64,000 nt of DNA from Apostichopus japonicus. Taxonomy: Eukaryota > Echinodermata > Holothuroidea > Aspidochirotida > Stichopodidae. Below the pieces are notes generated by a model. The model did not search any database. It saw only the letters and a program-made list of their open reading frames with translations, and was not told the origin of the DNA. Position 1 is the stretch's first letter. Every line of letters starts with the position of its first letter. Below are positions 25,690 through 52,286 of this stretch, one piece after another. The stretch is from NCBI RefSeq assembly GCF_037975245.1, contig NC_092572.1, positions 20,882,489-20,946,488 of the forward strand. Direction: 5' to 3'. Made by a program: the position numbers and the translations under genes.

Positions 25690-26410
25690 TTCCTAGAAGA
25701 AAGTGTAAAAGTTACAGTCCACTTCTCTGGAGGAAAGAGGGCAGGGAAAGAAATGATGGAAGAAGGCGACGGTACATATTGGACAAGGAATCATCAAATC
25801 TTATATTGTTCTCTTCCTACTGGTGCTGACGCTGATTGGCTCCAGTTTCACTGTATCTAGTTTGCTTCTACATGGTGAATGGCTAGCAACTCATCATACC
25901 TACAGAAGTAACAAGAAAATGTAAAAGTTACAGTCCACTTCTCTGGAGGAAAGAGGGCAGGGAAAGAAATGATGGGTGAGGGCGACGGTACATTGGACAA
26001 GGAATCAATCAAATCTAATATTGTTCTCTTCCTACTGGCACTGACGCTGATTGGCTCCAGTTTCACTGTATCTAGTTTGCTTCTACATGGTGAATGGCTA
26101 GCAACTCATCATACCTACAGAAGTAACAAGAAAATGTAAAAGTTACAGTCCACTTCTCTGGAGGAAAGAGGGCAGGGAAAGAAATGATGGGTGAGGGCGA
26201 CGGTACATTGGACAAGGAATCAATCAAATCTAATATTGTTCTCTTCCTACTGGCACTGACGCTGATTGGCTCCAGTTTCACTGTATCTAGTTTGCTTCTA
26301 CATGGTGAATGGCTAGCAACTCATCATACCTACAGAAGTAACAAGAAAATGTAAAAGTTACAGTCTACTTCATTGGAGGAAAGAGGGCGGGGAAGGAAAT
26401 AATGGAAGAG
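25690..26410 (-). repeat. 215-bp tandem triplication carrying the terminal TBCEL-B exon
   Basis: The units are offset by exactly 215 bp: stop codons fall at 25857, 26072 and 26287. All three carry the same acceptor and 43-nt terminal exon (25857-25899, 26072-26114, 26287-26329), and the first two encode identical peptides over more than 65 residues in another frame. The right duplication block has only one unit (about 44960-45170), so the triplication is specific to this copy. Confidence 0.9.
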
Positions 26411-29400
26411 GGCGAAGGTGTGGGTTCATACCAATGTATCCACCAATCAGAGCCACCACCAAAATATTCTTAGCTGAAGATGTAGAGACAACTAACGTAA
26501 CAACTGAGCACAAACATCAAATGAACTCCAATTATGCACATTAGACTTTCGCTCTCAACACTCAGTAAAGGGTGCTTCCATGGTAACAGCAAAACAGTTG
26601 AGTTCTCAGACCAGGGCTTTTCATTGTGATGTACGTACATGTGGCCTCTAGTCCCTGGTCAGTCCAGCACTCTTACGAAATATCAGAGCACTGGATCAGA
26701 CGAGGGTATTGCAGCTTGGCTACCCTTTCATTTTACTCAACTGTACATTGGTTTCAACTAACTGGTGGAATATTCCATAGGAATGCCTTGAAGCTAAAGT
26801 ACTAGCATACAGTGGCAAAAGGCACATTAAGCTTCCTGCTACAGTTACAAAGTTATGTAAATAACAACTTCTGTCCCAATCCTAATATGCAAAGTAGTCT
26901 GGCCCCGGGTAAATGTGCTATGAGAGTATAGTAGACTCGGACATTTGTGTAGAAAACATCTGCATTGAACAGTACCAGACTTGATTGAAGTATGAAATAT
27001 CTGTTGTAAAAGCAGCGTAATTATCTAAAGAATTCGTATTTTAATCCTTCAAGAAAGTACTACAGCCAGCAGCAGCTCTTGAGGGGGTGCTTAAAAGTTA
27101 TTGTTAACTTTACACATGTTTGACATTCCAAAGGGACCTACCTGTTTTGTACAGAGGTACTTTCACAAAGCAAAAGGAAACAAACGATTTACACAATCAC
27201 TGCACACACAAAATACAGGTTCACCTTCACGGGCGATTAGTATAATCACTGTAATACTGATAGTACTATTTGCATTAAATCTTCAAAAAGGCAATAAACT
27301 TTTCAATTTGAAATGAAACATACCGAGTTGGTTTCTCAGGGATATCAGAGTACTTCTCAATGAAAGCCCGTTCGGCAGTCCCTTTCTAATTCGAAGATGC
27401 TGCTATTGTTCAACTTCCTAATCTTTGGTAATCTAGCAATCAATAATTCCCGAGACTCCTTTTCATCAAACTCTTCTAATAATGGAATGCCTCGCAGCTT
27501 AACATCTTCCAAATTCGGGAAGTGGTTTAGATTGTCAAGTTCTTCCCAAGTCAACAAGTTTATGTCTGTGATGTCGAGCTGCCTCAGACAAGCAAAATGT
27601 CTACCAATGTCCTCTGTTAGGCCAGAGAGAGGGTTTTTTTCTAGGTGGAGACTTTCGATGCTTGGAAACAATTTTCCCAATGTAGCAATCTCTGACCACT
27701 TGGAGAGCAGGTTTCTGTTGAGGTAGAACTTTCTGACACTGGTGAAACAGGTTTCATCAATTGGTGTGGGAATGGATGCCAGGTTATTAGTACCAAAATG
27801 TAGCTCTTCAAGGCTATTTTGGAGAAAAAAAAAGATGAATAAATTTAAAAACTTTAAGAGCAACTTTCTGTGTTTGATCTTAATATAACCTTTCATGACA
27901 TATCTACAATTTATTTGTTTGATTGACATGATTATTATCCACTACTATCACATAGCATAAGGTTGGTACATAAGGTGTGAGTGGAACAAAACTGTAAATG
28001 CTGACACTTCTCTTTGACCTTGGTACCTATGGTAACAGCAAAAAACTGCCTTGCAAACTTCAATTAAATTCAAACCTCCAAGCTACAGACTGCAAGGGAT
28101 CTATATATATGCAAGGGACAATATGGATTGATCCTTCAAACAAACTGTTGGTATTGATCTGGTTAAAGACTCAGCTCTTCCAGTGTTGGAGTATTTTTTA
28201 GTTTTAAAACTTCCATAGACCTTGCTAGTTTTCATGCATCAATTCAGAGAGGTAGCTAGGGACCTAGTGCGTTGTGACTCATCCTTCATGGATCGTAGCC
28301 CTCAAAGTTTAAGGACTACTGGCATATAGCCAGTATTTATAGACAGTATATTTACAGACAGTATTTATAGCCAGTATTTACAGACAGTGTTTACAGACAG
28401 TATTTACAGCCAGTATTTATAGCCAGTATTTATAGCCAGTATTTATAGCCAGTATTTATAGACAGTATTTATAGACAGTATTTATAGACAGTATTTACAG
28501 ACAGTATTTATAGACATTATTTATAGACAGTATTCATAGACAGTATTCATAGACAGTATTTATAGACAGTATTTATAGACAGTATTTATAGACAGTATTC
28601 ATAGACAGTATTTATAGACAGTATTTATAGACAGTATTTATAGACAGTATTCATAGACAGTATTTATAGACAGTATTTACAGACAGTATTTATAGACAGT
28701 ATTTATAGACAGTATTCAGAGACATTACTTATAGACAGTATTTATAGACAGTATTTATAGACAGTATTTATAGACAGTATTTATAGACAGTATTTATAGC
28801 CAGTATTTACAGACAGTATTTACAGACAGTATTTACAGACAGTATTTATAGACAGTATTTATAGACAGTATTCATAGACAGTATTTATAGACAGTATTTT
28901 TAGACAGTATTTACAGACAGTATTCATAGACAGTATTTATAGACAGTATTTACAGACAGTATTTATAGACAGTATTTATAGACAGTATTCAGAGACATTA
29001 CTTATGGACAGTATTTATAGACAGTATTTATAGACAGTATTTATAAACAGTATTTATAGACAGTATATATAGACAGTATTTACAGACAGTATTTACAAAC
29101 AGTATTTATAGACAGTATTTATAGACAGTATTCATAGACAGTATTTATAGACAGTATTTTTAGACAGTATTTATAGACAGTATTCATAGACAGTATTTAT
29201 AGACAGTATTTATAGACAGTATTTATAGACAGTATTTATAGACAGTATTTTTAGACAGTATTCATAGACATTATTTATAGACAGTATTTATAGACAGTAT
29301 TTACAGACAGTATTTATAGACAGTATTTATAGACAGTATTCAGAGACATTACTTATAGACAGTATTTATAGACAGTATTTATAGACAGTATTTATAGACA

Positions 29401-31151
29401 GTATTTATAGCCAGTATTTATAGACAGTATTTACAGACAGTATTTATAGCCAGTATTTATAGACAGTATTTATAGACAGTATTTATAGACAGTATTTATA
29501 GACAGTATTTACAGACAGTATTTACAAACAGTATTTATAGACAGTATTTATAGACAGTATTCATAGACAGTATTTATAGACAGTATTTATAGACAGTATA
29601 TACAGACAGTATTTATAGACAGTATTTATAGACAGTATTTATAGACTGTATTTATACAAGTTGCAACATACCATGGTAGACCAGAAAGAGCCGAGAGCAG
29701 ATACGGCCATTTCAAGAGTGTGTCGCTGAGGATGGCAGTTTTAATGCTCTTGAATTGTTGTTTTCGTTGAGCTGCCTCTTCATCAGCATAGACAACACTC
29801 AGATTAGTAGAGGTGAGGTTCAAATGCACCAAGTTGGGCATAAATTTTATAATTTCCTCGACCTAAATGTAAAAGACAAATAACAAAATTCAAATATTTT
29901 CTTGAACCCAATGTACACACTTTGTAACCCAATGTAATTGTAATCCAATGTACACACAATGCACCATGCTATATACAGAATGCCTTTTTGGCTAAACTTT
30001 TAACAATGTATGTTACAGATAACTTCTCTCTCAAAATGATTTGGCAAGAGCTATGTGAAAATTCCTGACAAACTGGCATATGAGTTTATTCTCTGAACAG
30101 GACCAACATCAGTCACCCTTACCCCAGTCCAACAACACAAGGCATTGTGTGATACGTCCAGCTCAGTCACAACCTGAAGTTTATCAGCAATTTCCTGACA
30201 ATCACCAGCTGCAATTAAGTACTTGTGAGAAAGGATAATTTGCTTCATATCATAGTGTGCTGAAAAGAAAAAGCACAAACTTCAGTCTGAAGTTCAAACA
30301 TGGAATGATATGTAAGCTAAACTACATAGAAAGTTTGAAAAGATTCATTCAATGTTGTTATTCCCATGTACATACAATTGACAGTGGCTGATGATTATCA
30401 TAAAATCACCACCACAAGAATGAATTGAGCTGTTTGAGAGGAAACATTGCTTTGACCCAAATCCACCAAATGTCTCAGTAACAAATGAATTTGGCTGCTT
30501 TTGTTTTTGAATTTGCTTGGTAACAGCTAAAGGTGTGATAAACTTGGTACTATGACCCAATAAACCATCACCATGGATACACAGAACACATAAGGCCTTA
30601 TCCAACTGTAATGATCTAAATGAAATGATCTAAATAACTTCAATGATTGAATTGTATCATTTATTATTTCATTGCAATCTCTTTCATTCTGCTTAAACTT
30701 TGGCAAAAGGGTAAAGTAATGAATAGCTAGAATGGGGTTCCAACCAGTGAACTCTTGGATAAAAACCTAGCACTCTACCAACTGAGCTATCCATCCCTTG
30801 GCTATTTCATTGCTAGGAGTGCCAGTCAGCAGCCATACTGTGTAAACTGGGACTACACCCCAGTTTCATTCAATACAATCTCAAAAGGGGCAGGGAAAGG
30901 ATTTCAAGAGAAAAGTCAACTTTATAAGTATAAATTAATAAGCAACAATGAATAATACAAAATATAAGTGAAAATGGATAGAAAACCCAGTACAGACATT
31001 TTCTATCTTTTTCTTCTCCTCTTGCTTTCCCTTCAGATGACGATGGTATGAATAAGATAGAAGTATAACTAGCTACAGACGCCATCTCGCCTTCTGTCAG
31101 GTACTTGGCAATGAAGGCTTCAGCAAAGGTTGTAAAACTTGGTGTTTTGGG
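25857..31151 (-). CDS. TBCEL-B, left copy: UBL-less tubulin cofactor E-like unit with a 2-nt frameshift
   Basis: Minus-strand exons: 30998-31151, 30123-30259, 29672-29862, 27324-27813, then a 43-nt terminal exon in three tandem copies (26287-26329, 26072-26114, 25857-25899). Exons 2 and 3 have the same lengths (137, 191) as in the A units. The product has an N-terminal TTFAEAFIAKY motif, then leucine-rich repeats (ELDVSHNAL, SIESLHLEKNPLSGL). The fourth exon is 490 nt against 492 in the right copy. A 2-nt loss near 27371-27379 shifts the frame and stops it at 27357, 33 nt before the exon end, so only about 12 exon-encoded residues and the stub exon are lost. The terminal exon reads YDELLAIHHVEAN then TAG, with no UBL. 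No ATG is found in the first exon, which follows an acceptor. It may be the second half of a gene starting at 39542. Confidence 0.72.
28320..29655. repeat. 13-bp minisatellite, ~100 copies, with higher-order pattern
   Basis: The unit is CAGTATTTATAGA with TTCATAGA, TTTACAGA and AGCCAG variants. A marked block (CAGAGACATTACTTAT) recurs with GACATTA starting at 28721, 28994 and 29345, spacings of 273 and 351 bp, exactly 21 and 27 units. The array ends within about 20 bp of the splice donor at 29670-29671. The matching place in the other duplicate has only about 4 copies (45968-46014). Confidence 0.95.
30733..30805 (-). mobile_element. tRNA-derived SINE head
   Basis: On the minus strand it reads GGATAGCTCAGTTGGTAGAG (A-box-like) and then TGGTTGGAACCCC (B-box-like) at tRNA spacing. 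The anticodon arm is degenerate and no acceptor stem pairs well, so this is a SINE head rather than a functional tRNA. The same element sits at 47336-47404, so it predates the duplication. Confidence 0.65.
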
Positions 31152-31852
31152 CTGTAAGAATCACAGACAAAACATCTCTCTTATATACTCCATCTCTAAA
31201 GAACGACTTTCACAAAGTACACAGCGATCCTGAATATGACTTATTAGCACGATACAGGTATTACTCTCTCATGTTTTCAGAGAATATGTCAAATGCTGTA
31301 TTTTGATACTAAAATTTCATAAACTTTGAGGTAACCAAAAAATGCTAGGTAAGGGTTACCATATTTATGTGTTAACAAAATGGGGCATTGGAGTGGTCTC
31401 AGAGAATCTTTTGGACATGATTAACTTAATGAAACTCACCCCACTTCTGATCTGGTATATGCAAGTAACAGGGGCTGACACAACACTATTCTTCCACAAT
31501 TAACAGATGGATACTGCCTGTTACATGTAAAGATCAGGGGCTGACACAACACATATTTTATGTTATTTTTGCTAAAGTTGGACTAATATGTGTTAGGTGT
31601 CTCTGGCCACATCAGTTACTTTTCACCATCAGTAATGATTCATTGTCAATAATGTTTATGCTAACCTCAGGAATCTTTCTCTTCTGTAGTTTACTTTATA
31701 TCCTGCCAAAGGAGTAAGTATTACTTTATGGATGATTCAATTTCTTGCACAGTATTATGATTTTAAATGTTTCTAGCATATATACAATTATAAGTCAATT
31801 AACTGTCACATTGTTTGGGGAGTTAAGCATTAGGCTACCGTATTTATGTTAC

Positions 31853-32220
31853 CAGTGGCGTAGGAAGGTACTTCTGAGTGGGGGGGGCTGAAGACTGATG
31901 GCCGGCCTGGGGGAGGGGTCTAAGGGGAGGGGGTGTCCCCCTCCCCTTTGGTATTTTTTGCATTTCCAGGTGGCCTCAGATGCAATTTGGTGCAATATAG
32001 CACACTTCAACACCCACTCCATTTTGTAAACTTAATTTTGTATTTTCACCTGGCCTTAGATGCAATTTGGTGCTCCAAATGAGATTTTTTTTCTCATTTG
32101 GATATGAAAAAGGGGTTTTCTGACTTGCGAACCGGGGGGGCGGAATGATACTTCCGCCCCTCCACATTTTTCACTGGGGGGGCTGGCGCCCCCCCAGCCC
32201 CCCCGGTTCCTACGCCCTTG
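31853..32220. mobile_element. hAT-like non-autonomous element with 8-bp TSD
   Basis: The left end reads CAGTGGCGTAGGAAG and the reverse complement of the right end reads CAAGGGCGTAGGAACC. It is flanked by TATGTTAC at 31845-31852 and 32221-32228, a perfect 8-bp duplication. Inside is G/C-homopolymeric subterminal sequence. It lies between the UBL exon of TBCEL-A and the first exon of TBCEL-B, and is not seen in the right block. Confidence 0.85.
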
Positions 32221-32572
32221 TATGTTACTGTTATACATAGCCTTCCCAGCCTAAGTATATACATCATCTTCGTCAGAGAGAAATAGAGAGAAGTGATTAT
32301 GGTTTGCTAATGACTGCCTATACATACGATAAGGTCTGGGATGTTAGTGTCTATTCTGAATGGAGTATTAGAACAAGTAATATTTCCTAAGTGGGTCTAA
32401 AGGAGCATTCTGGTAAAATTTTAAGAATTCTGATGACATGCATGGTGACATATTTGAATTTAAAATATTAAATTTGTTCCTAAATCATAAAAATAACATG
32501 TAGGAGTGACAAATCTGAGAGCTGTGATTGAAGATGAATATGAGCAGATATATATGAAAATAAAATGCATAC

Positions 32573-35500
32573 GTTGGCGTTCATAGCGCGTGTAACTTCT
32601 TGTGGCTCTGATTCTTCCAGGGTTATTTCATCTCCATCTCGGATATTGTACCACTTCAGACTGGTGGTTCGGGGGTCGAGCACATCAATCTCAGAGTCGC
32701 CCTTGGCACTCCAGTACAGTAACCGTATATTGGAGCGCCGCACTCCAAAATGAGACGCCAAGGTTTTCTTTAATTGTTTACAAGTTTGCTCTGTGGAAAT
32801 AGTCATTGTGTCTGTTTTCTCTTTATATTTGATGGTGATGGTGGCACTGGTTACCACGGTCATATCTACCTGTGCCAGTCTGTGGACATTCTTGTGAACT
32901 GATGATAGTTCTTCATATCTGCGAGAGAAAAAGCATAACTCTGAGCAATATGAAGAGAAAAGAAGGAGAAATCAAGTTTCAGACTTTGATGCCTTCATGT
33001 GACCTCATGTGACCAATTTCAATAGGATTCTTGCACTCACCAAGCTGCATCTACATGCTAGGTATGAAGTTCAAGAAAGATGCACTTGTTGTGTTTATCT
33101 TTTTACAAAATTTTCAGACTTTCACTAAAGTGTTGACTGCAAATGACCAGTAAGACAGATCCACATACCAAGTATGAAGTTAATTCAACCATTAACTTTT
33201 TGAGTTACCCTTTTTACAAGCAAGTGTCACATACATACACACACATGCTCACACACACACCATCACCATCGCATAGATTCCTGTTGCCTCCGCGCCAAGG
33301 AATCGACCAGAAAACGAACACGTTTAGTGGTTCTGATGTCTGCACAAATTCATATTGTGGTAAACCATACATGGTATTATTCATGAGCTTGTGCTCACCA
33401 ACATGAAGAGGACTATATATTGACTAATGAGGCAATATATAAAGGAAGGTACCAGGAATCAGTTATCAAGTTTGACAAAGTCTGTTTAGTGACATAGTGT
33501 AATAAAATTTTGCACCTAAGATGGTCTCAAGAATCTTTGGCATCAACAAAGTGACTCAAAAGTATCTTTGCCCCCAAAATTTACCCCAAGGAAGGTGGGC
33601 CCACTAATTCCGGCCCAAAGAATTTGTCCCAAAATGCATTTTACATGGCAATAAAATTTGGGACCACTCAGCCTTATAATGCACCCAGAATTCTGATCCA
33701 ATTTATGGTTGTAGAGTTATTGCAATTTGAATGTTTTGGGCCCTCCCCCAAAAAATATTTGACTCAAACAAACTGACTCAAAAATATATTTGCCCCTCCA
33801 AAATTGAACACCACCAATTCTGGGCTCAATGGTTCAAAAAGTTCTGAGCCCACAGAATGTGTCCCAAAATGCATATTGAAAATAAAATAATTTGAGGCGG
33901 AAATAAAATATGGGCCCACCCAGCCCAAAAGTGTGCAGAGATTTTTTGGGCCCCCAAAACACCTAAGCCAATTTGTTGCTGTGCAGACTATATATATATT
34001 ATGTAGTTAGATCATCATATCACAAATAAACTAAATCAGACATTACGGTTGCAGAGATATTGACATATAAGCCCCAAACCAAATAGGGCACATCTACTCA
34101 GTATAGGGCATCTATCTATCAAGTATGACATGGATTCAACTTGTGTTTGTTGAGATACTGTGTTTTTCAACCTAGGGCGTCACATACACACACATTCACG
34201 AACTTGCAGGTACCAACATACACACAAACGCTAACTTGACTACATAGGTCCCAATGGATGCAAACATCAGAACCCAAACCACAACCTCGTAGCATTTTGC
34301 ATTTACAACAATATTCATACTTCAAAGTTTGGGGATCTTGGTGTTTGTTTCATATTTTTATTGATGTATCTGGTAACTTTACAGGAATCACATTTACCTT
34401 TTGGGTTTCTCCGTTGAGTCCATAAATTTCCGTATGAAAGCCCTTTCAGCATCCTCTCTTTCTGGTTCAGAGATGGGACTGTTATTTAATTTTGTGACAT
34501 GTGGTAACCTAGCAACTACCAGCTGACGAGATTCCTTTTCCTTGAGTTTCTTCAAGAGGGGAATTCCCCTCAACTGAAGCTCTGTAAGTTTAGGAAAGTG
34601 GTTGAAATTGTCAATATCCTCCCATGAGGACAATTTAGTGTCCAAAGTACTAAGCTGTTTGAGACAGGCAAAATGGCCACCAATGTCTTCTGTGAGGCCG
34701 GAGAGAGGGTTGTTAACCAGGAGGAGGTTTTCAACATTTGGAAATAATTGTCCCAGCTTGGCAATCTCCGACCATGATGTCACCATGTTGTCGTTGAAGT
34801 AGAGCTTTTTGACACTGGTAAAACGGGGGTCACCATCAGACGGTGTTGGAATGGATGAAAATTCATTGAGGCTCAGATGAACTTCTCTAACGCTGTTATA
34901 TGTATAAAAAAAAACAGTTCTGTTCATAACCAAAACAAACTTTTTCAAGATATCATCACATGCGGTCAGACATTATTTTGAGTTCATGTACTTGGGGTGG
35001 GATGGCTCTGGGATCATTGAAGCTGATATTCATGTCTAAGGATCCTCCCACTCTAAATAAATGAAAGTTTATACAACAAATAGTGCAATGTGAGGCACAA
35101 TTAGACCATATGCTTTTGGGTCTTACTCTTTAGTAAGGTCTACATGTAAGGTTGTGCTAATAAATACATTTGAAAGTCTGTGTGAGATTGAAAAGGAGGG
35201 TGCACTGCCCCTTCACCCCCTGGGTTACCCACCTGAGAGGATATATTTCTTCACCATATGAATGTAGAAAAAAAGAGTTGCTTTGGTGGCAATGGACATA
35301 GACCTAGTTGACTTGCCGTGTAATTGTTGTCAAGTACTCCATGCACATGAGACTGATGGCTGACCTTGTTCCCTATATATACATGTGGAGCTATATTTAA
35401 AGCTCCCAGGGCCCCTTATTGTGTGCTAGGCTTCTTCAATAGTATTCAGCAGTGTGCAACTTTGACAGATTGGTAGCACAATTTATTTTAAAAATTGGGA

Positions 35501-38500
35501 ACGACTAGAGTACCTTAGACCAAGCACAGTGTTAGGGGATAGGTTGGGGGTATGGGGACATCCATACCATCTCCCCCCCCCCCCACCAAAGAAAAATCAG
35601 ACCTTCTTCCCCAAACACCATCTGATACCCCTTTACCCGAACAAAATATTCTCAAAGGTAAAGGGCCAAGAAAATTCAAACTATTCAAATATCATACCTA
35701 GGGAAGCCGGCGAGGACCGATAGAACAGAAGGCCAAGATAAATTAGTAGCATTGAGGATTAGAACCTCAGTTCTCTCTTTTCCCAGTCTTGTACATCTGA
35801 TAGAATCTGCTCCACTGCAGCTACCTAACTCTGCAGAAGCCAGATTGAGAAATTCCAATCGTGGCATGAATTTTATAACTGACTCCACCTAGAACGAAGC
35901 ATATAAATATGTAAATTAAAATACTAAAATATATAATGACACCTCGATGAGAATTTGTAACAAAGCAAGCAACACATCTGGGACAGTTCAAGGATAACCT
36001 GGTGGCTGTGCTTTATTGCTTAGCAAAACTGCTGAAAAGTTTCAGAGCTTTTAGACCAAATATAACATTCTCATAGCATTTTGAAAGGCAACAATATGAA
36101 TTTTTCAAACTTTGTGATAATTAGTAAATTGCATCTGGCAACAGTAGAATGGATCATGTCATCAGGGCAATTCAGCTGAAAACATCTTTGTTTTTCTTTA
36201 TAATCTTTCAATCATTTAGAAAAGGAAATTTAATAGAAATCAGAATGCAAGAATGCATTTTGGTTTCGATGATGGAACATGAGCAGTTTTCTTCATGAAT
36301 GTGACGTAATGTATCATGAGGGTGTACATGTTTCAGGGTTCGTACACTTTTTTCACAACCAAATTCAAGCACTTTTCAATCACTTTTCAAGCACCAAATT
36401 TATGTATTCAAGCACATGCTTATCATTAACAATAGACATTCTGTGAGACAGAGGCATAGAACACACAAAGCTGAACAAAGTAATCAAGTACAAATTCTTT
36501 AACACCCTGATAAAAAATAAAAAAATACATACTGTACAATGAATGGAACAAATCTTTAAAGGTATACTGACAGATACAGGTTATTCTCAGTATCAGTAAA
36601 AGAGCATTAAATTCTTAGTATGTCAGTCTTTGAATTTTGAAAATAGCTATAAATTATTCCAATAAAGATCCACAAAGGATAAAAATGCTAAGTAGAGCTT
36701 ACTAAAGAGAAATAGAAACTGCATGTACATGGTTATTTTAAGTATCCAAATACTATACAAAGAGATTGAGTTCACCGAAACACCCACTTTTCCCTTACAC
36801 CTGAGGAAAACCGTCTTTTATAAATTATAGTACCATACAGTACTTTACATTTGATACAAAAGTTACTTCTAAAACAGCTTTGTATTTGTCGCAATAGGTT
36901 AAGTTTTAACCGCGCAGCACAGTACCATGATTTGCATATTACACCAAAATTTACACTCGGCGCCCAGATGGCGGGAAAATGGGTCATCATGTTCAATGTG
37001 TTGTTTCATTCCCATGGTGCGATGAACTTGGGCAAGTTCGAATGTCGATGACCTACAGTACTTATGTTCCGTGACCAATGTCAATGGGAATTATGTGTGT
37101 AAAAACTCAGGTTTTTCCACGTGTTATATATATAAAAGTTTTACGTAAGCGGAGCGAATTTCGGGGCGGCTCGTTGATTGTGAGGAAGCACTTATCTAAA
37201 CGTCAATACTTGTGAAAAAATATGTTTTTCTTCAGAAAATATTTTTGACTAGTAATTGGAATCTCAATGTATTAAGAAGTACTGGGGTAAACCTTATCAT
37301 TGCATTTTGGGGGAAGTCAGATATTCAAGTGCAAACTATTGGTTTTTCATTTAAGGTTATCGTGGTTTTCTTGCGAGGTGTATACGGCGTAACTTTCGAT
37401 GTAGGCTAAGAGGTAGGATCGGCCAGGACCTACCTAGTTCTCATGAATTGTTACCTACATTCAATATAATGCCTAACGGAAGCAACTCTTATAGATAGTA
37501 AAAGACTGGGGCACATTGTCGTAATTAATATAGTTTCCTTGCTAAAGTTTTTGCACTGATTGTATCCATAGTTTGTGCTCCTAGTTGCGCTGTTTTCTTT
37601 GTTACTCTTAGTCTTATCGGCTTAAGTATATGCTAACTCTGTGGTTGAACATTTTGGAAAGTTATCAATTGGGCTTGGTGCGATACTGAGTTTACTGACT
37701 CTTTTCTTCATCACAGTTTATTCTAACCCATAGAAGCTCTGTTATGTAAAGCGGCTGCGAACACCCTACGTTTACAGATTATACGAGATTGTACGTCTTT
37801 TCGCGCGTATAATCCCTATTCAGGGGCACTAGAGCGAAGCCCTAAGCCGCGTAGACACGGCGTAGACACCTCGTAGACACCGCGTAGAAAGTTGAGTACA
37901 GAAACGTATAACAAAGTATAATCGCGTAGATAAACGTAGAGTATACGTCTACGCGGAGTTATACGTGAGCGGTTCTGTAGGTGATGTCCACAGATAATTA
38001 TAAGCCGCTGCGGAAACTGTTAAATTCAGCGTGTTCAAGATCACGCAACCTCCAGAGCCGTATATTTATACGGCTCTGGCAACCTCTAATGCAATGTGTA
38101 CGCTGGGTATATAAAGACATGATATTATAGAGCCACAGATGCATTACGCACAATATGCGCTAATTGCAAGCGCTGTCACAACTCTTGTATCACTATCTGT
38201 GACTATTCAAAGTACGTTTAAACCTAGAATTTTGTGACCAAATGTTTCGTAATTTTTAGACAACTAAGACTTTTAATTTCTTTTGGTCACAATTTGACTA
38301 TTCTACGGTAATTATTGTGTAACAATTACATACTAAATATGATTTGCATTAAGCATGTTAAATTTCAAGCACTTTTCAATGACATTTTCCAAAAACATAA
38401 GAATTCAAGTACTTTCAAGGCCTTGAAAACTGACCAATCAAATTCAAGCATTTTCAAGGTTTTCAAGCACCCGTACGAACCCTGATGTTTACAAGGATTT

Positions 38501-39542
38501 CAAGATTTGACCTCTGATGACCCCAAATGACCTTTGACCTCCGCCAAAAACAATAGGCTTCTTTAAATCAACGTGGTACCTCTACACACTAAATTAAAGG
38601 TGGGCCCAAGCTTCCAGTATTGAGATGTCATGTTTACAAGCTGGGCATCACAATGCACTCACACACACATACACACATACATACACACAAGCCATCATGA
38701 ATGCATAGGTTACGATTATCAACGAAACCAAAAAGAGACATTACGATGACATTCTAAGCACAGAGAGTGTTCACAGATAAGGAAACATTCCAAATGTTTC
38801 AGGTTTCACGAATAAATCAACAGGCAGATTATCATAGGCTAGAAGTAAAAGCTTTTGAAGTACATCTGCCCACAGGATATCACAGAGCCCCTACTGTATC
38901 TACTAACCATATCTCAAGTTAGGGTCAAGATATGGATTTCAACTAGCAGTGTGAAATATTTGTTTCTCTTCAATACAAGTTTCACATTGTTTTGCCACCA
39001 GAAAATCATTTTAAATTAAGTAATATTCCAGTCACTAAAGGTGCACACATCTCATCTCTGCAATTATTCCTCGTCATCTACATTTCATAAAAAGAATGAA
39101 CTTTCTCACCACATTCCAGGATCCAAGTCTGTTAGCAGAGAGGTCCAGCTCAGTAACATTTCGAACCTTATCGGCGATTTCTTTTACCTTACCAGCAGAG
39201 GTGATGTTCTGATGATCAAGGACGACTTGTCTTAGGAAGGTATTTGCTGAAGTGGGAACAGACGAAAATAGTTAAAGGTACAGTAAACTTGAGCGTTTTC
39301 CTCAAACAAGAATTTTAAAAGCATATCCATATATACTTTGATGAAAGGAATTGATAGTTTTTAAATATTGTCTTCATATTTTCTTTATTTAACCAGCATA
39401 TTTTGATAATAAACATACCACCAGGTTTAGATTTTGGACAGAGTATAACAATTCCATCATCAGCACCAAAGTCTGTTTCATCTTCCTCTTCCTCCTCCAG
39501 GTATTTAGCAGTGAATGCCTCCACAAAGCTTTTTCCAGTCAT
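32573..39542 (-). CDS. TBCEL: TBCEL-A, left copy: tubulin cofactor E-like protein with LRRs and UBL
   Basis: Minus-strand exons: 39419-39542 (ATG), 39110-39246, 35698-35888, 34398-34892 and 32573-32918, with phases 1, 0, 2, 2, giving 431 in-frame codons. Human TBCEL is about 424 residues. Order: N-terminal SFVEAFTAKY, an acidic run, leucine-rich repeats from about residue 60 (NVTELDLSANRLGSW, VENLLLVNNPLSGL, LQLRGIPLL), the linker REDAERAFIRKFMD, RYEEL, then a UBL from about residue 335 to 420 ending NIRDGDEITLEE. There is no CAP-Gly, which distinguishes TBCEL from TBCE. The family destabilises tubulin; its UBL is thought to link to proteolysis. If the donor GTATGC at 32571-32572 is ignored, the frame reads on to a stop at 32480 (461 aa). 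If used, it joins in phase 0 to the TBCEL-B exon at 31151. An upstream 5' UTR exon is likely, as an acceptor-like TTACAT/TTACAG precedes the ATG. Confidence 0.85.
32990..34260. repeat. Dispersed repeats within the TBCEL-A (left) last intron
   Basis: CAAGTATGAAGTTAATTCAACC and GTCACATACATACACACACA belong to the GGGCGTCACAT family. Between 33490 and 33995 a ~240-bp unit is duplicated (GTGACTCAAAAGTATCTTTG against CTGACTCAAAAATATATTTG; TGTCCCAAAATGCAT in both). Absent from the right copy's shorter intron (49009-49794). Confidence 0.65.
36334..38484. mobile_element. DNA transposon-like insertion, CAGGGTTCGTAC ends
   Basis: The left end is CAGGGTTCGTACAC and the reverse complement of the right end is CAGGGTTCGTACGGG. 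Both are followed inward by repeated TTCAAGCACTTTTCAA phrases, in opposite orientation. ATGTTT flanks it on both sides (36328-36333, 38485-38490), a possible 6-bp duplication. No transposase is recognisable. It contains a CGTAGAC-rich cluster (37840-37970) and a nested palindrome at 38053-38078. It lies in the intron between exons 2 and 3 of TBCEL-A (left). Confidence 0.7.
38053..38078. mobile_element. 26-bp palindromic element with 8-bp TSD (hAT terminal-repeat pair)
   Basis: CAGAGCCGTATA, a TT loop, then TATACGGCTCTG. It is flanked by perfect GCAACCTC repeats at 38045-38052 and 38079-38086. The element has no interior between its two inverted ends. Confidence 0.75.
38490..38710 (+). repeat. 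Dispersed GGGC(G)TCACA repeat with (CA)n
   Basis: Contains GATTTGACCTCTGATGACC, TGACCTTTGACCTCC, then GCTGGGCATCACAATGCACT and ACACACATAC repeats. Confidence 0.6.
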
Positions 39543-40539: not shown

Positions 40540-40707
40540 TTGTTTCCGTTTTTCGTTCAGGGAGTATCGCTTCTTTAGCAGATCTCCGAGTTCACACGCT
40601 GTTCCCGCAGTAAGTAGGCGGGCCTGTACGACAACACTCTAAATGCGTGGACATTTCAACGTAAAGCCTTCCAACGTGGAACTGATACCCGGGGAAATGC
40701 GGCTATA
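40540..40707 (-). promoter_or_regulatory. Putative promoter/5' UTR region of the left TBCEL pair
   Basis: Strongly conserved with 53745-53905 although surrounding sequence has diverged. On the minus strand it contains GGCCCGCCTACTTACTGCG (GC-box-like), then GATCTGCTAAAGAAGCGATA and CCCTGAACGAAAAACGG. It lies about 1 kb upstream of the first coding exon, consistent with a non-coding first exon. Inference only; no TATA box. Confidence 0.4.
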
Positions 40708-41922: not shown

Positions 41923-44655
41923 GAATTGGCGACCCTGCCAGGACTGAAGTAACCAATAGATTAGACCTGGAGAGTGGAGACCACAATGAAGACGGGCCAA
42001 AGCACCTCAGCCGATGATGTCGCGGAAACGGATATGAGGGAAACGGTAAAAATGTATGAGCGGAAGCCCAAAGGACTTGGAAGCAGAGTTTGAAAGATAT
42101 CTAGGGGAGCTAAAAGTGACCACATCAACCGGGCCCTGAGAAGGAAAGTCACCCTCCCACGGACCATGCTCTGCCATACAAGAAAGAGTTCAAGATACAA
42201 GGACAGATCGGGGACGTACCTGGGCAACGTGACAAGCTAGCATTCATGTCTCTGGTCCACCAGATTGACAGTGGACTGAAAAGAGGGTATCCTGAGAAAG
42301 AAATCGTAGAGGCTGTAGTTAGAGCTGTAACACCTGGGACTTTTTGGAGGGACGGGACGACTTAGACCTCCCCATTACCAGACGTCTGCTGATGGCTCAC
42401 TCCCAGGAGCGGGGAGCTACTGAACTGTATCAGGAGCTATGTGGTATATATCACAGGGTAGAACTGAGACGGCACAGCATTTTGTCCTCCGTACCCTGGC
42501 ACTGAAGCAGAGAGTACTCTTCGCATCAAAATAAGCCAAACCGAAGAACGCCAAATTTAAATATGATCAAACCCTTGTAGAGTCAATGTTTAAACATGCA
42601 GTGTCAACTGGGTTGTCGAATGCCAAAGTTAAACAGGAGGTAAAGAGGGCCTTCTCCAGCAACACATGCTGCGAGAAAGATCTCCTAGAGAGGGTAAACC
42701 AAGCATCTCATTCCGAGGCAGAAAGGGCGAGAAAGATGCAATTGAAGAAGCCAGTCACAGCATCGGTTGAGATGACAAAGAATGACCGACACATTCCTGA
42801 AGTAAAAAGAGAGAAGAGCCCAAACTTGTACGAAGAGGTACAACTATTGAAGACACAAGTGACTGAAATATACAAGACATAACAGCAGGGAGAAGGGCGA
42901 AAACGTTTGAGAGGCCTCGGGATGCTCCGATTGTCAACAGGATGGTGTAGGAGACCGTTACGTCATTGTTATAAATGTGGTTAATCCGGTCACCTATCCA
43001 GGGGTTGCTTGGCAGGTAAGCAACAGGGAAACGCCAATAGGTGTCCTCTGGTGGACGAGAAGGGACCTCGGGCGATGTCCATGCAGTAAATGTAAATGGG
43101 CTTGAATGTCCCGACTTGCTTAGACAGGTTACAATGAATAACGATTAGTCTCGAAAGAGGAGAGAGAAGACTGTTGACCTAGCTGGTGAAAGGGGCATTG
43201 TAAATGGAACCCTCAACGGGATTGATAGTGAACTGCTGTGGGATACGGGTTCAGCTGTATCTCTAGTCTCGGACATTTGGGTCAAATATCACCTTTCTCA
43301 TGCTGAAATAAGAACAGTTGAGTCCACCCCTTACAGCATTTGTGACACCGTGGGGCCTCCATGAATGAAAGAGAATACCGTTCGGGTTAAAAAAACGCCC
43401 AAGCGGAGTGGAGGGATGCCTGTATGGTCTGAACAACGACATTTGTTTTGTATATTGAGATGATGTGCTAATCCATGGCAGTACATTTAAAGAACACTTG
43501 GAGAATCTTAAGAAAGTACTGGCCAGACTACAGCAACATGGGATAAAGCTAAAGACCTGTAAATGTACTCTTTCAGACACAGGTCAGGTACTTGGGCAGA
43601 CTAGTCACTGAAGAAGGACATGTTAGACCCTACAGATCTTGAACCAGTCCTTTAGCTCAAAGATAAGAAAACATCAACAGTTGGGGAAAATGCTAGGGTT
43701 CATTGGCTACTTCAGGAGCTCCATTCAAAACTTCTCAGCAATTGCCAGTCCTCTCTTCAAGCTGTTACAGAAGGAAAAGGGTTCTACACAAAAACCCAAT
43801 CGCAGAAACCAGAAGAACAACCATCTACCCAACTCGAATCAGAAGATAGCCAGTACTGAGGAGCATCAGGAAATTTTATGTAGTCTGATTGACCTACTAA
43901 CGAGACAACCAGTTATGGCATTCCCTGATAACTCTAAGCCATACATTCTCCACACCGATGCATCGTTAGTTGGGCTTGGAGCTGTACTCTACCAGGAACA
44001 GGAGGGGAAACTGAGAATAATTGCATATGCCTTCCGAACTCTCAGTGCTACAGAGAAGAATTACCACTCCACAAAACTTGAATCCCTGGCACTGAAGTGA
44101 GCGGAGACAGAAAGTTTTCAAGATTACCTGACATGTGCAAAGCACTCTGTGGTCTACACAGATAATAATCCCCTCACTTAATGACGACAGCACGTTTAAA
44201 TGCAACAGGTCAGAGGTGGGTATCAGATCTTGCCTCATTCAGATTTGGTATCAAGTATCGACCAGGGCACAGTAAGCAGGATGCCGATGTGTTATCAAGG
44301 ATGCTCTAAGAGACCAACATCAATGAGTACATCCAGGAGTGTACTGCAGAAGTTCCGGGATGTGCTCTCCAGACATTTGTGTATGCAGACTCATTTACTG
44401 CTGATATATACCTGTGTAATATCACGAACGTGTATACATTCAATAGTATGGGTGCCAAGGTGATTCTAGTAGTGAGATGACTAGTAAGGTTTATATCTCC
44501 AGCTTGTTATTAGCAAGGCTAAAAAAAATTAGAACAGTATAGAGTGCCTTTAATAACTTTTATTAACCATTAGTTTCTTCTTACATTGAATTTTATATTT
44601 CTTCATACCATACATGTTTACATGTCAGGAATGACATCTCTAGAGGAGGGGAGAG

Positions 44656-45031: not shown

Positions 45032-47763
45032 CTAGTTTGCTTCTACATGGTGAATGGCTAGCAACTCATCATACCTACAGAAGTAACAAGAAAATGTAAA
45101 AGTTACAGTCTACCTCACTGGAGGAAAAAGGGCAGGGAAGGAAATGATGGAAGAGGGCGACGGTACATTGGTTGCTACTACCTGGTGGAATATTCCATAG
45201 GAATGCGTTGAGGCATAAAGTACTAGCATACAATGGCAAAAAGCACATCAAACTTTTTACTGCAGTTACAAAGTTATCTAAATAACGACTTCTATCCCAA
45301 TCCTCATATGCAAAGTAGTCTGGCCCAGGTAAATGTGCTATGAGAGTTTAGTAGACTTGGACTAGTACTATTTGCATTAAATCTTCAAAAAGGCAATAAA
45401 CATTTGAATTTGAAATGAAACATACCGAGTTGGTTTCTCAGGGATATCAGAGTACTTCTCAATGAAAGCCCGTTCAGCACAGTCCCTTTCTGATTTGCTG
45501 ATGCTGCTATTGTTCAACTTGCTTATCTTTGGTAATCTAGCAATCAATAACTCCCGAGACTCCTTTTCATCAAGCTCTTCTAATAGTGGAATGCCTTGCA
45601 GCTGAACATCTTCCAACTTGGGGAAATGGTTTAGATTGTCAAGTTCTTCCCAAGTCGACAAGTTTATATCTGTAATGTCGAGCTGCCTCAGACAAGCAAA
45701 ATGTCTACCAATGTCTTCTGTAAGGCCAGCGAGAGGGTTTTTTGCTAGGTGTAGACTTTCGATGCTTGGAAACAATTTTCCCAATGTAGCAATCTCTGAC
45801 CACTTGGAGAGCAGGTTTCTGTTGAGGTAGAACTTTCTGACACTGGTGAAACAGGTTCCATCAGCTGGTATGGGAATGGATGCCAGGTTATTAGTACCAA
45901 AATGTAGCTCTTCAAGGCTAGTTTGGAGAAAAAAAAGATAAATTAATATACAACTTTCTGTGTTTGATATTTACAGACAGTATTTACAGACAGTATTTAT
46001 AGACAGTATTTAGACAGAAAACAGTAACTTGCAACATACCATGGTAGACCAGAAAGGGCCGAGAGCAGAAACGACCATTTCAACAGTGTTCTGTCGAGGA
46101 TGGCAGTTTTAATGCTCTTTAATTGTTGTTTTCGTTTAGCTGCCTCTTCCTCATTAATGATAACATTCAGATTAGCAGAGGTGAGGTTCAAAAGCACCAA
46201 GTTGGGCATAAATTTTATAATTTCCTCCACCTACATGTAAAAAAGAGAATAAAAGTGAAATAACACAATTCAAATTACGTTCTTGAACCCAATTGTACAC
46301 ACTTTGTAACCCAATGTAATTGTAACCCAATGTACACACAATGCACTGTGCTTTATACAGAATGCCTTTTTGGCTACACTTTCGGCAATGTATGTTACAG
46401 ATAACTAATATCAATGCAGGTTACATTCCCGTACCACTTTTCCTTCAGAGAGAACACTTTCTCAAAATCCCAAGAATGGCCTTCTTCTCAAGCCATGGAT
46501 TAGTGTTGCTGTACATAAAAATGTTGACAGTAAATTCAGCTATTGAAGTGAAATTAGCAACTTTGATCTTTGGATAACAACAGAGGATGTTTTAAGTCAC
46601 TTTACGTCAACTCAAAATGATTTGGCAACAGCTATGTGAAAATTCCTGACAAACCAGCGTTGCAGGCAGATGAGTTTACTCTCCAATAGGACCAACATCA
46701 GTCACCCTTACCTCAGTCCAACAACACAAGGCATTGTGTGATACGTCCAGCTCAGTCACATCCTGAAGTTCATCAGCAATTTCCTGACAATCACCAGCTC
46801 CAATTATGTGCTTGCGAGAGAGGACAATTTGCTTTATTTCACAGTGTGCTGAAAAGAAAGCACAAACTTCAGTCTGAAGTCCAAACATGGAATGATATGT
46901 AAGCTAAAAAAAAAGCTTAAGTTTGAAAAGATTCATTCAATGTTGTCATTCCCATGTACATACAATTGACAATGGCTGATGATTATCATAAAATCACCAC
47001 CACAAGAATGAATTGAGCTGTTTGTGAGGAAACATTGCTTCGACCCAAATCCACCAAATGTCTCCGTAACAAATGAATTTGGCTGCTTTTAAACAGTTTA
47101 TAATGACTAAGGACATCGACCCATGGAATTTGCTTGGTAACGGTTATAGGTGTGATAAACTTGGTACTATGACCCGATAAACCATCACCATGGTTGCACA
47201 GAACACATAAGGCCTTATCCAACTGTAATGATCTAAATATCCTCAATGATTGAATTGTATCATTTATTATTCCATTGCAATCTCTCTCCGCATTCTGCTT
47301 AAAATTTGGGAAAAGGGTAAAGTAATTAATAGCTAGAAAGGGGTTCCAACCAGTGAACTCTTGGATACAGACCTAGCACTCTACCAACTGAGCTATCCAT
47401 CCCTTGGCTATTTCATTGCTAGGGGTGCCAGTCAGCAGCCATACCGTGTAAACTGGGACTACATCCCAGTTTCATTCCATACAACCCAGAAAGGGGCAGG
47501 GAAAGGATTTCAAGAGATAGTCAACTTATAAGTATAATTTTATAAGCAAAAATGAATAATACAAAATATAAGTGATAATGGAAAGAAAACCCAGTACAAA
47601 TTTTTTTTTTATCTTTTTCTTTTCCTCTTGCTCCCCCTTCAGATGAAGATGGTATTAATAAGATAGAAGTATGACTAGTTAAAGACTCACAGTCCATCTC
47701 GTCTTCTTCAGGGTACTTGGCAAAGAATGCTTCAGCAAAGGTTGTATGAGTTGGTGATTTGCG
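45032..47763 (-). CDS. TBCEL-B, right copy: UBL-less tubulin cofactor E-like unit
   Basis: Minus-strand exons: 47598-47763, 46712-46848, 46040-46230, 45426-45917 and 45032-45074 (TAG), phases 1, 0, 2, 2, giving 343 in-frame codons. The intact frame starts RKSPTHTTFAEAFFAKYPEE, followed by LRRs (ELDVSHNALCCW, SIESLHLAKNPLAGL, VQLQGIPLLEEL) and the linker CAERAFIEKYSDIPEKPTR. The last exon supplies YDELLAIHHVEAN and a stop, just where A units continue into a UBL. So the LRR part is kept and the UBL is lost. The first exon opens at an acceptor (TTACAG) in phase 0 and has no ATG, so an upstream exon must supply the start. The nearest compatible donor is that of TBCEL-A at 48685-48686, only 0.9 kb upstream. 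Confidence 0.8.
45968..46014. repeat. Short 13-bp array (ancestral state of the 28.3-29.7 kb array)
   Basis: About four copies of the CAGTATTTAYAGA unit in the intron homologous to that holding ~100 copies in the left block. Confidence 0.85.
47336..47404 (-). mobile_element. tRNA-derived SINE head, duplicate of 30733-30805
   Basis: Same GGATAGCTCAGTTGGTAGAG and GGTTGGAACCCC boxes at the homologous intron position. Confidence 0.65.
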
Positions 47764-48686
47764 CTGTAACAATCACAAACAAACATCTCTCTATTATACT
47801 TTAAAGAACAACTTTTACAAAGAACACGAGACTGAATATAATTTATTAGCAGGATACAGGGATTCTTCTCTCATTTTTTCAAAGTCCAAATGCTGTATTC
47901 TGTTACTAAAATTTCATAAACTTTGAGGTATCAAATGCATGGTGACATATTTGAATAAATCACATTTAATTTGTTCCCATATGGAAACTTTTGCTCTATA
48001 AACGGCCCGTTGACGGAGAATTAAATGATGATGCACGCACAGGAAGTGTTGCGGTTTTCACTCTCCGAAATTGCTGTGAGAGCACTGCACACTGTGCTGT
48101 GTTTAGATTAGCAGCGTAAAGGAGGACTTCTCAAATTTCTTACTATGCTATTGATTTGCTGGTGAAAAGTACAAGCCTTAAAATTGACCAATCAAGTGGA
48201 ATTTTTATATCACTAGAGAAACGAGTCAACGAACTTTTCTTTGGCATAGGAATGAAATTGGTTATGCAAGCACACTCCCAGCAAGCACAATGTAAGCATT
48301 AAGAGATAGGGACATTTTGAAGACGTTCACTGCTTTCCGAAGTGGTTTTTACTTTTTCAGATTAAAGAGTAGGGGCTTTAGTTCACACGCATAATAAATT
48401 ACGACACATCATTGTAAAGAGGACACAATATTCTTCAAAATGACATAAAAAAGAGTTGTCTGAGTGCTATACTTAGAAAGTTATGAAAAGAGTTAGCGCG
48501 AAATGTGCTTAATTTGTAGCAATATTTGCTACGTCACGAGGTGTTTTGTGCCGAGTTCGGCAAGGATTCCATGTGTTTCAACTTAATGATTAAATCATAT
48601 ATGAATGCAGGAGTGACAAATCTGAGCTGGGATTGAAGATGAATATGAGCAGATAAATATGAAAATAAAATGTATAATTTGCATAC

Positions 48687-51600
48687 TTTTTGTTCGTCTG
48701 TATCTTCCAGGGTTATTTCATCTCCGTCTCGGATATTGTACCACTGTAGACTGTTGGTACGGGAGTCAAGCACCTCAATCTCAGAGTCGCCCTTGACGCT
48801 CCAGTAGAGTAACCGGATCTTGGAGCGCCGCACTCCAAAATGAGAGGCCAAGGTTTTCAATAATTGCAGATAAGTTTGCTCTGTGGAAATAGTCATCTTG
48901 TCTGTTTTCTCTTTATATTTGATGGTGACGGTGGCACTGGTTACCACGGTCATATCCACCTGTGCCAGTCTGTGGACATTCTTGTGAACTGATGATAGTT
49001 CTTCATACCTATGAGAGAGAAAGCATAACTCTGAGCAATATGAAGAGAAAGAAGGAAATTTGTTTAAATACAAATTAAAGACATTTTACTTCAACTTATA
49101 CTGAGATTGAGGTTCCTCTTTCCTTCTTTTCTTTTTCTTCCTTTCTTCTCTTTTTCTTAGTTCTTTTCTTAATTCTTCCTATCACATTCCATAACTCTCT
49201 GTATTCGCTACTTTTGTTGTATATATGTTGTGAAAAAACAAATATTATAAACAAAAATTAACGAAATGAACAAACGTACGCCAACTTGGATGCAAACATT
49301 GGAACCCAAAACACAACCTCTTAACATTTTGCATTTACAACAATATTTATATTTCAAAGTTTGGGGATCTTGGTGTTTTTTTAACATTTTTATTGATGTA
49401 TCTGGCAACAGCAGGGATAAATGATGTCATCATGACAATTGAGCTGAAAATACTTTATATTTATCCTAAGAGGAAAATGGTATTTCTGCAAACAGGAATA
49501 TATCCCATTGAAGAAAAGATAACGTAACTCGTAAAATAACCTGTTACTTTAGTGCACTAGAATCAACTTTATTAATTTGCCAGTAACAAGAGTATATTAC
49601 ATTCAATTAGTGGGATACAAAACTTTCTGTATTGGATTACAGACAACTGACATATTAGAAATAGTCCATCCAGCCAAGCACAAACAAACATTCACTTAGT
49701 TAGATTTAGAGGTATCCAAATAGTACATGTCTTTAAACAAATAGAAATTCAATGAATAATGTAACTTTACAGGAATCAAAACTAAGACATTTACCTTTTG
49801 GGTTTCTCCGTTGAGTCCATAAATTTCCGTATGAAAGCCCTTTCAGCATCCTCTCTTTCTGGTTCAGAGATGGGACTGTTATTTAATTTTGTGACATGTG
49901 GTAACCTAGCAACTAGCAGCTGACGAGATTCTTTCTCCTTGAGTTTCTTCAAGAGGGGAATTCCCCTCAGCTGAATCTCTGTAAGTTTAGGAAAGTGGTT
50001 GAAATTGTCAATATCCTCCCATGAGGACAAGTTAGTGTCCAAAGTACTAAGCTGTTTGAGACAGGCAAAATGGCCACCAATGTCTTCTGTTAGGCCGGAG
50101 AGAGGGTTGTTAACCAGGAGGAGGTTTTCAACATTTGGAAATAATTGCCCCAGCTTGGCAATCTCCGACCATGATGTCACCATGTTGTCGTTGAAGTAGA
50201 GCTTTTTGACACTGGTAAAACGGGGGTCACCATCAGACGGTGTTGGGATGGATGAAAATTCATTGAGGCTCAGATGTACTTCTCTAACGCTGTTATATGT
50301 ATAAAAAAAAAAACAGTTCTGTTCATAGCCAAAACAAACTTTTTCAAGATTACATCACATGAGGTCAGACATTATTTTGAGATCATGTACCTTGGGTGGG
50401 GTGGCTCTTGGATCATTGAAGCTGACATTCATGTCTAAGGATCCTCCGACTCTAAATAAATTAAAGTTTATACATCAAATGGTGCAATTCGAGGCACATT
50501 TAGACCATATGCTTTTGGGTCTTACTCTTTAGTTAGGTCTAAATTTTTGCTACAAGATTGTGCTAATAAATACATTTTGAATGTATTCTCAAAAGGTAAA
50601 GGGGCAAGAAGATTTAAACTAATGTGATTTTGCTTGCAGACAATAGATGTCCGCAGCCTAGACATTGCTTCTAGGTTTGAGACTGGGCTTAAAGCTGTCT
50701 GCATAGTGCAAGCATTACTTCAACACTACAGTACTTAGCTAATATATCTTTTTCTTTCAATAGTTTCATTTTTAATTTTCTGAGATGTTTGTGCCTCTCT
50801 CGCTGCTGATATTTGCAGTTCTGATAGGAATTGAAACAGTTTAGAAAGACAGCAACAAATATCATACCTAGGGAAGCCTGCGAGGACCGATAGAACAGAA
50901 GGCCAAGATAAATTAGTAGCATTGAGGATGAGAACCTCAATTCTCTCTTTTCCCAGTCTTGTACATCTGATAGAATCTGCTCCACTGCAGCTACCTAACT
51001 CTGCAGAAGCCAGATTGAGAAATTCCAATCGTGGCATGAATTTTATAACTGACTCCACCTAGAATGAAGCATATAAATATGTAAATTAAAACAACAAAAT
51101 TTATAATGACATTTTGATGCGAATTTGTAACAAAGCAAGCAACACTTCTGGGACACTTCAAGGATAACCTGGTGGCTGTCGTTGATTGCTTAGCAAAATT
51201 GCTGAAAAATTTCAGAACTTTTAGACCAAAAATAACATTCTCATAGTATTTTTTAAGGCAACGATATGAAGCTTTCAGACTTTATGATATTTAGTAAATT
51301 GCACATTCCAAATGTATCAGGTTTCAAATATAAATCAACAGGCAGATTATAATAGGCTAGAAGTAAAAGCTTTTGAAGTGCATCTGCCCACAGGACATCA
51401 CAGAGCCCCTACTGTGATGGAACTTCCTGGAGTAGCTGAAGGTTTAGCCAGTCAAAATAGGTTATATTCAATCAACCATATCTCAAGTTAGGGTCAAGAT
51501 ATTGAGATGGGGATTTCAACTAGCAGTGTGAAATATTTGTTTCTCTTCAATACAAGTTTCACATTGTTTTGCCACCAGAAAATCCTTTTAAATTAAGTAA

Positions 51601-52286
51601 TATTCCAGTCACCAAGGTGCACGCATCTAATCTCTGCAATTATTCCTCGTCATCTGCATTTCATAGAAAGAATGAATTTTCTTACCACATTCCAGGATCC
51701 AAGTGGGTTAGCAGAGAGGTCCAGCTCAGTTACATTCCGAACCTTATCGGCGATTTCTTTTACCTTACCAGCAGAGGTGATGTTCTGATGATCAAGGACG
51801 ACTTGTCTTAGGAAGGTATTTGCTGAAGTGGGAACAGACGAAAATAATTAAAGGTACAGAAAACTTGAGTGTATTTCTCAAACAAGTATTTTAAAAGCAA
51901 ATCCATATATAAAAAAACTCTAGCACAACAGAGTGTGTCAGTGTGATACACACAGAAACAACACACATCACCACCACACAAACTCCTCTTGCTTTTTCTC
52001 AAAGATATTTGGACTGCTTTGAGGTAAAAATCTCATTAATGACCATTTAGGATATAAGTTTAGCAAATGAGTGCTTAACTTTGATGAAAGGAATTGATGG
52101 TTTTTAAATATTGTCTTCATATTTTCTTTATTTTGACTAGCATATTTTTATAAAAAACATACCACCAGGTTTAGATTTTGGACAGAGTATAACAATTCCA
52201 GAATCAGCACCAAAGTCTGTTTCATTTTCCTCTTCCTCCTCCAGGTATTTAGCAGTGAATGCCTCCACAAAGCTTTTTCCAGTCAT
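48687..52286 (-). CDS. TBCEL: TBCEL-A, right copy: tubulin cofactor E-like protein with LRRs and UBL
   Basis: Minus-strand exons: 52163-52286 (ATG), 51686-51822, 50868-51058, 49795-50289 and 48687-49008, phases 1, 0, 2, 2, giving 423 in-frame codons, nearly the length of human TBCEL. The first four exons have exactly the lengths of the left copy (124, 137, 191, 495). LRRs span about residues 60-300, followed by REDAERAFIRKFMD and RYEEL, then the UBL from about residue 335, ending NIRDGDEITLEDTDEQK. No CAP-Gly. There is no stop at the end of the UBL. The next bases are GTATGC, a possible donor in phase 0; without splicing the frame runs to 48534 (473 aa). The acceptor-like TTACAG just upstream of the ATG points to a non-coding first exon. 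Confidence 0.87.

Follow-up and report, generated by a model that had tools for sequence, protein, structure and literature searches.

Do two neighboring TBCEL-type units in the sea cucumber Apostichopus japonicus, each with leucine-rich repeats (LRRs), belong to a single gene? The question is raised by a 64,000-nucleotide window (the whole stretch of DNA analyzed; contig C12, NC_092572.1, 20882489-20946488), in which two tandem blocks lie on the minus strand: the right block holds unit A' followed by B', and the left block holds A followed by B. We tentatively read each block, with a confidence that falls just short of even, as being, or as having recently been, one conjoined gene in which the ubiquitin-like (UBL) exon of A is spliced in phase 0 to exon 1 of B. 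This reading is drawn from sequence, and it is better argued from the right block than from the left.

The first-pass annotation had proposed two TBCEL-type units in the left block, with LRRs in both and a UBL in A, and this was borne out by domain and structure matches. Unit A consists of exon 1 (39419-39542, with the ATG at 39542 and a phase-1 donor GTATGT), three LRR exons (39110-39246, 35698-35888, and 34398-34892) and the UBL exon (32573-32918); the corresponding exons of A' lie at 52163-52286 (ATG at 52286), 51686-51822, 50868-51058, 49795-50289, and 48687-49008. A matched TBCE chain 9m1j_E (E 1.2e-22), and a Pfam scan gave Ubiquitin_2 with 30.9 bits (E 3.8e-7, cut-off 23.1) together with two LRR families above cut-off and no CAP-Gly. 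The UBL of A' is 85% identical to that of A, although the genome search with Ubiquitin_2, whose 2 matches include the A UBL, did not list it. B comprises exon 1 (30998-31151) and three LRR exons (30123-30259, 29672-29862, and 27324-27813), and B' comprises exon 1 (47691-47763), exons 2 to 4 (46712-46848, 46040-46230, and 45426-45917) and a fifth exon at 45032-45074. This last exon is a remnant of the UBL exon that reads YDELLAIHHVEAN followed by a stop, and only such a remnant is left of the UBL in B and B'. In the left block, copies of the remnant and its acceptor occur in three units of a 215-bp tandem array (25697-26437, minus strand), against one such copy in the right block. B' matched TBCE chain 9m1k_E (E 3.3e-15), and the predicted fold of its exon 4 (best pLDDT 82.4 among five models ranging 51.0-82.4, from an alignment of 4 sequences only) placed TBCE first among 987 aligned chains (9m1m_E, Z 16.0, rmsd 2.3, 156 aligned), with the next non-TBCE LRR chain close behind (Z 15.0 and lower). 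The predicted UBL fold was too poor to be used (pLDDT 50.3). A is a predicted TBCEL-type protein with LRRs and a C-terminal UBL and without CAP-Gly, and the genes themselves stand far beyond chance. Genome searches, which covered 671.6 Mb in 35 contigs, returned no further TBCEL units: all 6 protein-search matches at E<=0.01 fell inside the window, and of 17 matches in a second search (E up to 10, best candidates scored), the best 8 were exons of the window and the other 9 were weak (E 0.36 or worse). On contig C35 of this genome, COX1 is open when translated by the echinoderm/flatworm mitochondrial code, with AAA at the Asn of NHKDIG and of GNW, which by itself marks the animal as most likely an echinoderm.

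How, then, could A and B be joined? As first annotated, no stop interrupts the A UBL exon up to and including LEESEPQEVTRAMNAN, and its frame reaches the GT at 32572-32571 in phase 0; these coordinates were reproduced. The same arrangement is seen on both sides: a UBL exon without a stop runs up to a phase-0 GTATGC donor (preceded by AAC at 32572 in A and by AAA at 48686 in A'), and the first exon of B or B', open in phase 0, follows a TTACAG acceptor. That exon lacks a start at its 5' end, and a TGA stands in frame four codons upstream of it. The annotation was right that B exon 1 starts at 31151 after TTACAG and is open, but its statement that the exon has no ATG did not hold, since an in-frame ATG lies at 31085 (codon 23); the ATG contexts are GGCGAGATGG in B and GACGAGATGG in B'. 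Joining A and B from 39542 does give a single frame of 743 residues with its stop at 27359-27357, as had been claimed. This left-hand model relies on a poor exon-1 donor, the phase-1 GTCTGT after AAT (score -2.6, 73rd percentile), and its stop arises from a 2-nt deletion in exon 4 relative to B', whose frame continues. The joined A' and B' give an open LRR-UBL-LRR frame of 734 residues by way of a GTGAGT inside B' exon 1 (after ACT, at 47690), which is in phase 1 as needed and whose score of 2.5 falls between those of donors at the 96th and the 97th percentile. Donors were scored with a human donor table, and their percentiles are taken among all GT dinucleotides of the minus strand of the window. 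The left block is a damaged copy, and A'-B' is the better candidate.

If the junction is not spliced, A gains 30 residues before meeting a stop at 32482-32480, and A' gains 50; the unspliced frame stays in phase across the blocks for about 16 codons beyond the donors, up to a 2-nt indel. The human TBCEL stop, which lies just after the UBL, has no counterpart in A or A'. An equally good phase-0 donor before the first stop within 100 nt was found in 8.7% of random stretches of the window, or in 4.8% when donors were counted by the motif GTATG/GTRAG, and the junction alone is therefore suggestive and not compelling. On first impression the donor had seemed conserved across the blocks, and this was rejected when the blocks were aligned with nine different scoring schemes. 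Both blocks share the acceptor of B exon 1, which aligns between them and scores at the 97th and the 94th percentile.

The blocks themselves record a history of duplication and loss. Homology runs from 40705 to 25697 in the left block and from 53906 to 44957 in the right, interrupted by repeats, and beyond these limits, short repeats aside, the window shows no duplication of the flanks at >=100 nt. Non-coding substitutions between the blocks number 95 in 1479 sites around B and 172 in 2195 around A. The divergence of A from B is far older, with synonymous changes saturated (dS ~2.4-2.7). Both B and B' have lost the start where A has its ATG, the GT where A has its exon-1 donor (judged by eye) and the UBL, and because these three losses are common to both blocks they probably predate the block duplication. 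The 2-nt deletion is confined to left B. In left B, a 13-bp minisatellite of ~102 copies (window 28325-29656) takes up much of intron 3, against 3.5 copies on the right (45968-46012). A tRNA-like (SINE-type) sequence was seen by eye in intron 1 of B (30740-30810) and of B' (47330-47410); ARAGORN called 0 tRNA genes in the window.

Is B still maintained as coding sequence? Between A and A', exons 1-4 showed dN 0.012 and dS 0.056 (ratio 0.21, 0.06-0.54), the UBL gave a dN/dS of 0.33 (0.13-0.77), and there were 0 indels in 947 nt of exons 1-4 against 46 in 2195 nt of non-coding sequence, with 5 gaps in 332 nt of the UBL exon. Synonymous divergence was 0.177 in the UBL exon (32573-32918 vs 48687-49008) and 0.056 in exons 1-4, as if parts of the block differed in age or had undergone conversion. 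In 818 nt of B exons 2-4 there are 1-2 indels (two one-base gaps by BLAST, the 2-nt deletion being the net difference in length), compared with 18.3 expected from B non-coding sequence (33 in 1479; P(<=2) 2.2e-6); when the indel-rich segment round intron 1 was excluded, 10.7 were expected (P(<=2) 0.0016). These counts used 15 of 22 block-to-block alignment rows, the 22 being rows longer than 60 nt that do not end in minisatellite; the rows dropped were 1 repeat pair, 2 A-to-B cross matches, 1 SINE-like match and 3 extra copies of the 215-bp array. B exon 3, for which that set contains no row, was aligned separately and has 0 gaps and 21 substitutions, exon 1 stood outside the indel test, and codon counts in exon 4 end at the frameshift. 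The scarcity of indels means that the reading frame of B exons 2-4 was protected during at least some of the period after the duplication. B' is open through exon 4, the only frame-breaking change being that in left B, and the chance of both copies staying free of stops under random substitution was 0.018-0.061 (for 50-35 changes per copy, transition bias assumed). Residues in exons 1-3 have changed freely or under selection for change: dN was 0.139 and dS 0.075 (ratio 1.84, 0.89-6.20), and nonsynonymous change exceeded that of B non-coding sequence (48/372 vs 95/1479, the latter ~0.064 per site; Fisher p 8e-5, counting the longer form of exon 1), the excess over the synonymous rate being not significant (p 0.085). 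Exon 4 up to the frameshift gave a dN/dS of 0.43 (0.17-1.22). A frame protected in this way, with residues of exons 1-3 changing, fits a translated B and is hard to square with a long-dead relic; it does not tell a B translated together with A from one translated separately.

Several observations weigh against a conjoined gene. The two GTATGC donors were never aligned with each other in co-optimal alignments under any of the nine schemes; the left GTATGC sits opposite TTATAC on the right in optimal alignments, and forcing the donors together lowered the score in 9/9. The donor is therefore not a conserved site between the blocks, and it may have moved, or one or both donors may be coincidental. 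At the 90th-92nd percentile, the junction donors also score below the other donors of A and A' (96th-99th). The ancestral exon-1 donor position of B lacks a GT in both copies, its replacement on the left being weak; the internal ATG of B has G at -3 and +4 in both; and left B is frameshifted. Over all exons, B/B' dN/dS is 0.94 (0.54-1.87), compatible with no constraint, and exon 1 is not protected from indels, with 5 gaps in 153 aligned nt, none of them within its first ~69 nt, the part aligned in the comparison of the spaces. Finally, the A'-B' space on the right holds an AATAAA (47847) and an ATTAAA (47970). The earlier proposal that A and B are one gene is supported in part and weakened in part: the A' donor in phase 0 without a stop, the B' unit without a 5' start and the indel protection of B exons 2-4 speak for it, and the unaligned donors, the loss of the B exon-1 donor and UBL, a dN/dS of about 1 and the left frameshift speak against it.

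The same observations can be assembled differently. B and B' may be decaying TBCEL relics, with A and A' stand-alone TBCEL genes that read past a mutated stop by the 30 and 50 residues given above and with donors that are there by coincidence, an explanation that we consider possible but doubtful. The early loss of the B start, exon-1 donor and UBL, the deletion in left B, the overall dN/dS and the gapped exon 1 all suit such decay, as do the frequency with which chance supplies an in-phase donor (4.8-8.7% per block), the position of the donors at non-aligned sites and the in-phase unspliced frame common to both blocks past the donors. What it accounts for poorly is the avoidance of indels in B exons 2-4 and the state of B', which retains its frame, its splice sites, a good phase-1 donor and an exon 4 whose dN/dS estimate lies below 1. 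Part of the picture could also be an artefact of assembly, either haplotypes placed in tandem or a base-calling error at the frameshift. False tandem duplications do occur in heterozygous genomes, and left B and B' differ by just 2 nt at the frameshift; however, homology that ends at 40705/53906 and 25697/44957 beside unduplicated flanks, a non-coding divergence of ~6-8% and the insertion of different repeats make this explanation very improbable.

A further alternative is that B and B' are separate genes with LRRs only, starting either at the internal ATG (31085, with its equivalent in B') or in an undetected 5' exon; their products, short or dampening forms, would bind tubulin while lacking a UBL. 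The G at -3 and +4 of that ATG in both copies, its position ahead of all LRRs and the frame protection of exons 2-4 agree with this, and in the left block the exon is preceded, at a distance of ~36 nt, by the TATA-like string GTATATAAG. The string is not kept in B', however, and the 182 nt upstream of B are 79.7% identical between the blocks, no better than the B introns. No ATG exon ending in a phase-0 GTRAG/GTATG donor was found in either A-B space, weaker donors being outside the scan, and the motif F-EAF-AKY, which lies upstream of the internal ATG, is common to A. The idea that the A promoter had been copied upstream of B was rejected, the regions upstream of A showing only short, chance-level matches to the A-B spaces. 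Taken together, we regard separate B genes as improbable.

The spaces between A and B are of different make-up in the two blocks. The left space (1421 nt) has no AATAAA or ATTAAA, which speaks for a conjoined gene, although it contains nine variant signals. A stretch of 613 nt present in the A'-B' space only (47978-48590, minus strand) is nearly all interspersed repeat (positions 15-613 of 613), and the stretch of the left space without a counterpart on the right (31334-32437, minus strand) contains repeat over 368 of its 1104 nt. This young 368-bp repeat (31853-32220) is 96-98% identical to 39 other places scored (40 having been scored of 3081 first-look candidates) and is flanked by two pieces that match only themselves in the genome search, which skips very common words, so that uniqueness is not implied. 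Setting the block-specific stretches aside leaves 310-317 nt, but an ancestral A-B space as short as this is not claimed, as the non-repeat pieces on the left may equally reflect a deletion on the right. Elsewhere in the window, a retroelement-like ORF with the look, by eye, of reverse transcriptase/RNase H lies between the blocks (43627-44100, plus strand), a satellite array of ~180 bp, one half of it inverted, occupies 5689-9544, and a minisatellite with a ~39-bp period occupies 62651-63849.

Where would a conjoined A-B gene stand among known systems? With its LRRs, C-terminal UBL and lack of CAP-Gly, A resembles TBCEL (COEL-1 in C. elegans, mulet in Drosophila), which is told from TBCE by the presence of LRR and UBL domains without the CAP-Gly that TBCE has (PMC3789837). 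The description drawn on here names an LRR domain and a UBL for TBCEL, without mention of a second LRR domain (PMC3789837). The fused reading differs in having an internal UBL followed by a second LRR domain, B alone contributing LRRs only. TBCE (tubulin-specific chaperone E) shares the LRR/UBL arrangement and is the best match in sequence and structure, but it carries CAP-Gly, and 0 of 10 genome matches to CAP-Gly fell in the window in an exon-by-exon search from which weak matches can escape. On another contig, the other Ubiquitin_2 match of the genome (C8:24489500-24496500) is TBCB-like by eye, with CAP-Gly and UBL ORFs, and ~60 kb from it (C8:24.55-24.56 Mb) a CAP-Gly and a weak LRR match (E 3.2) lie 8 kb apart and may be TBCE. 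As same-strand neighbors joined by splicing, A and B would resemble conjoined genes, or tandem chimeras, which have been described (PMC4136775), and a human TBCEL-TECTA readthrough protein has been named (PMC12295355). Here, in contrast, A would be joined to its own tandem paralogue, and the splice would make good the loss of a stop and a start. No double TBCEL (LRR-UBL-LRR) was found in the open-licence literature, judged mostly by title and the start of the abstract. The kind is already known, from tandem paralogues and from conjoined genes, and the architecture would be a new variant and not a new system.

Returning to the conjoined gene, its origin can be pictured as follows. An ancient tandem duplication of TBCEL would have produced A, with LRRs and UBL, and B; A would then have lost its stop, and B its 5' start, exon-1 donor and UBL, in an order that is conjectural. 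The pair would next have been duplicated as a block to give A'-B' and A-B, and splicing from the A UBL exon to B exon 1 would yield a protein in which the TBCEL LRRs are followed by an internal UBL and then by a further LRR domain. The intact form would be that of the right block, 734 residues long and ending in the B UBL-exon remnant, and the left block would be its damaged sister, of 743 residues, with a weak donor and a frameshift before the end. TBCEL, which is reported to be tubulin-destabilizing, has been proposed to disassemble tubulin heterodimers and send alpha-tubulin to the proteasome (PMC3789837), and in Drosophila it acts in spermatid individualization (PMC7055396). By analogy, the LRR domains would grip tubulin, and the UBL would help to split the heterodimer and commit alpha-tubulin to degradation; the added LRR domain could serve as a second, faster-evolving surface that binds a second tubulin or a partner. 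That A' and B' together encode one such tubulin-destabilizing LRR-UBL-LRR protein, its second LRR domain under diversifying selection and perhaps at work in the male germ line, is speculative, and we think it unlikely in this full form. If the conjoined gene is real, tandem paralogues would here have been caught in the act of merging, one having lost its stop and the other its start, and the duplicated block would serve as a replicate in which one copy is already decaying. It would also provide a naturally occurring TBCEL whose UBL lies between two LRR domains that bind tubulin, and this could be used to test how the geometry of TBCEL and TBCE governs disassembly of the tubulin heterodimer.

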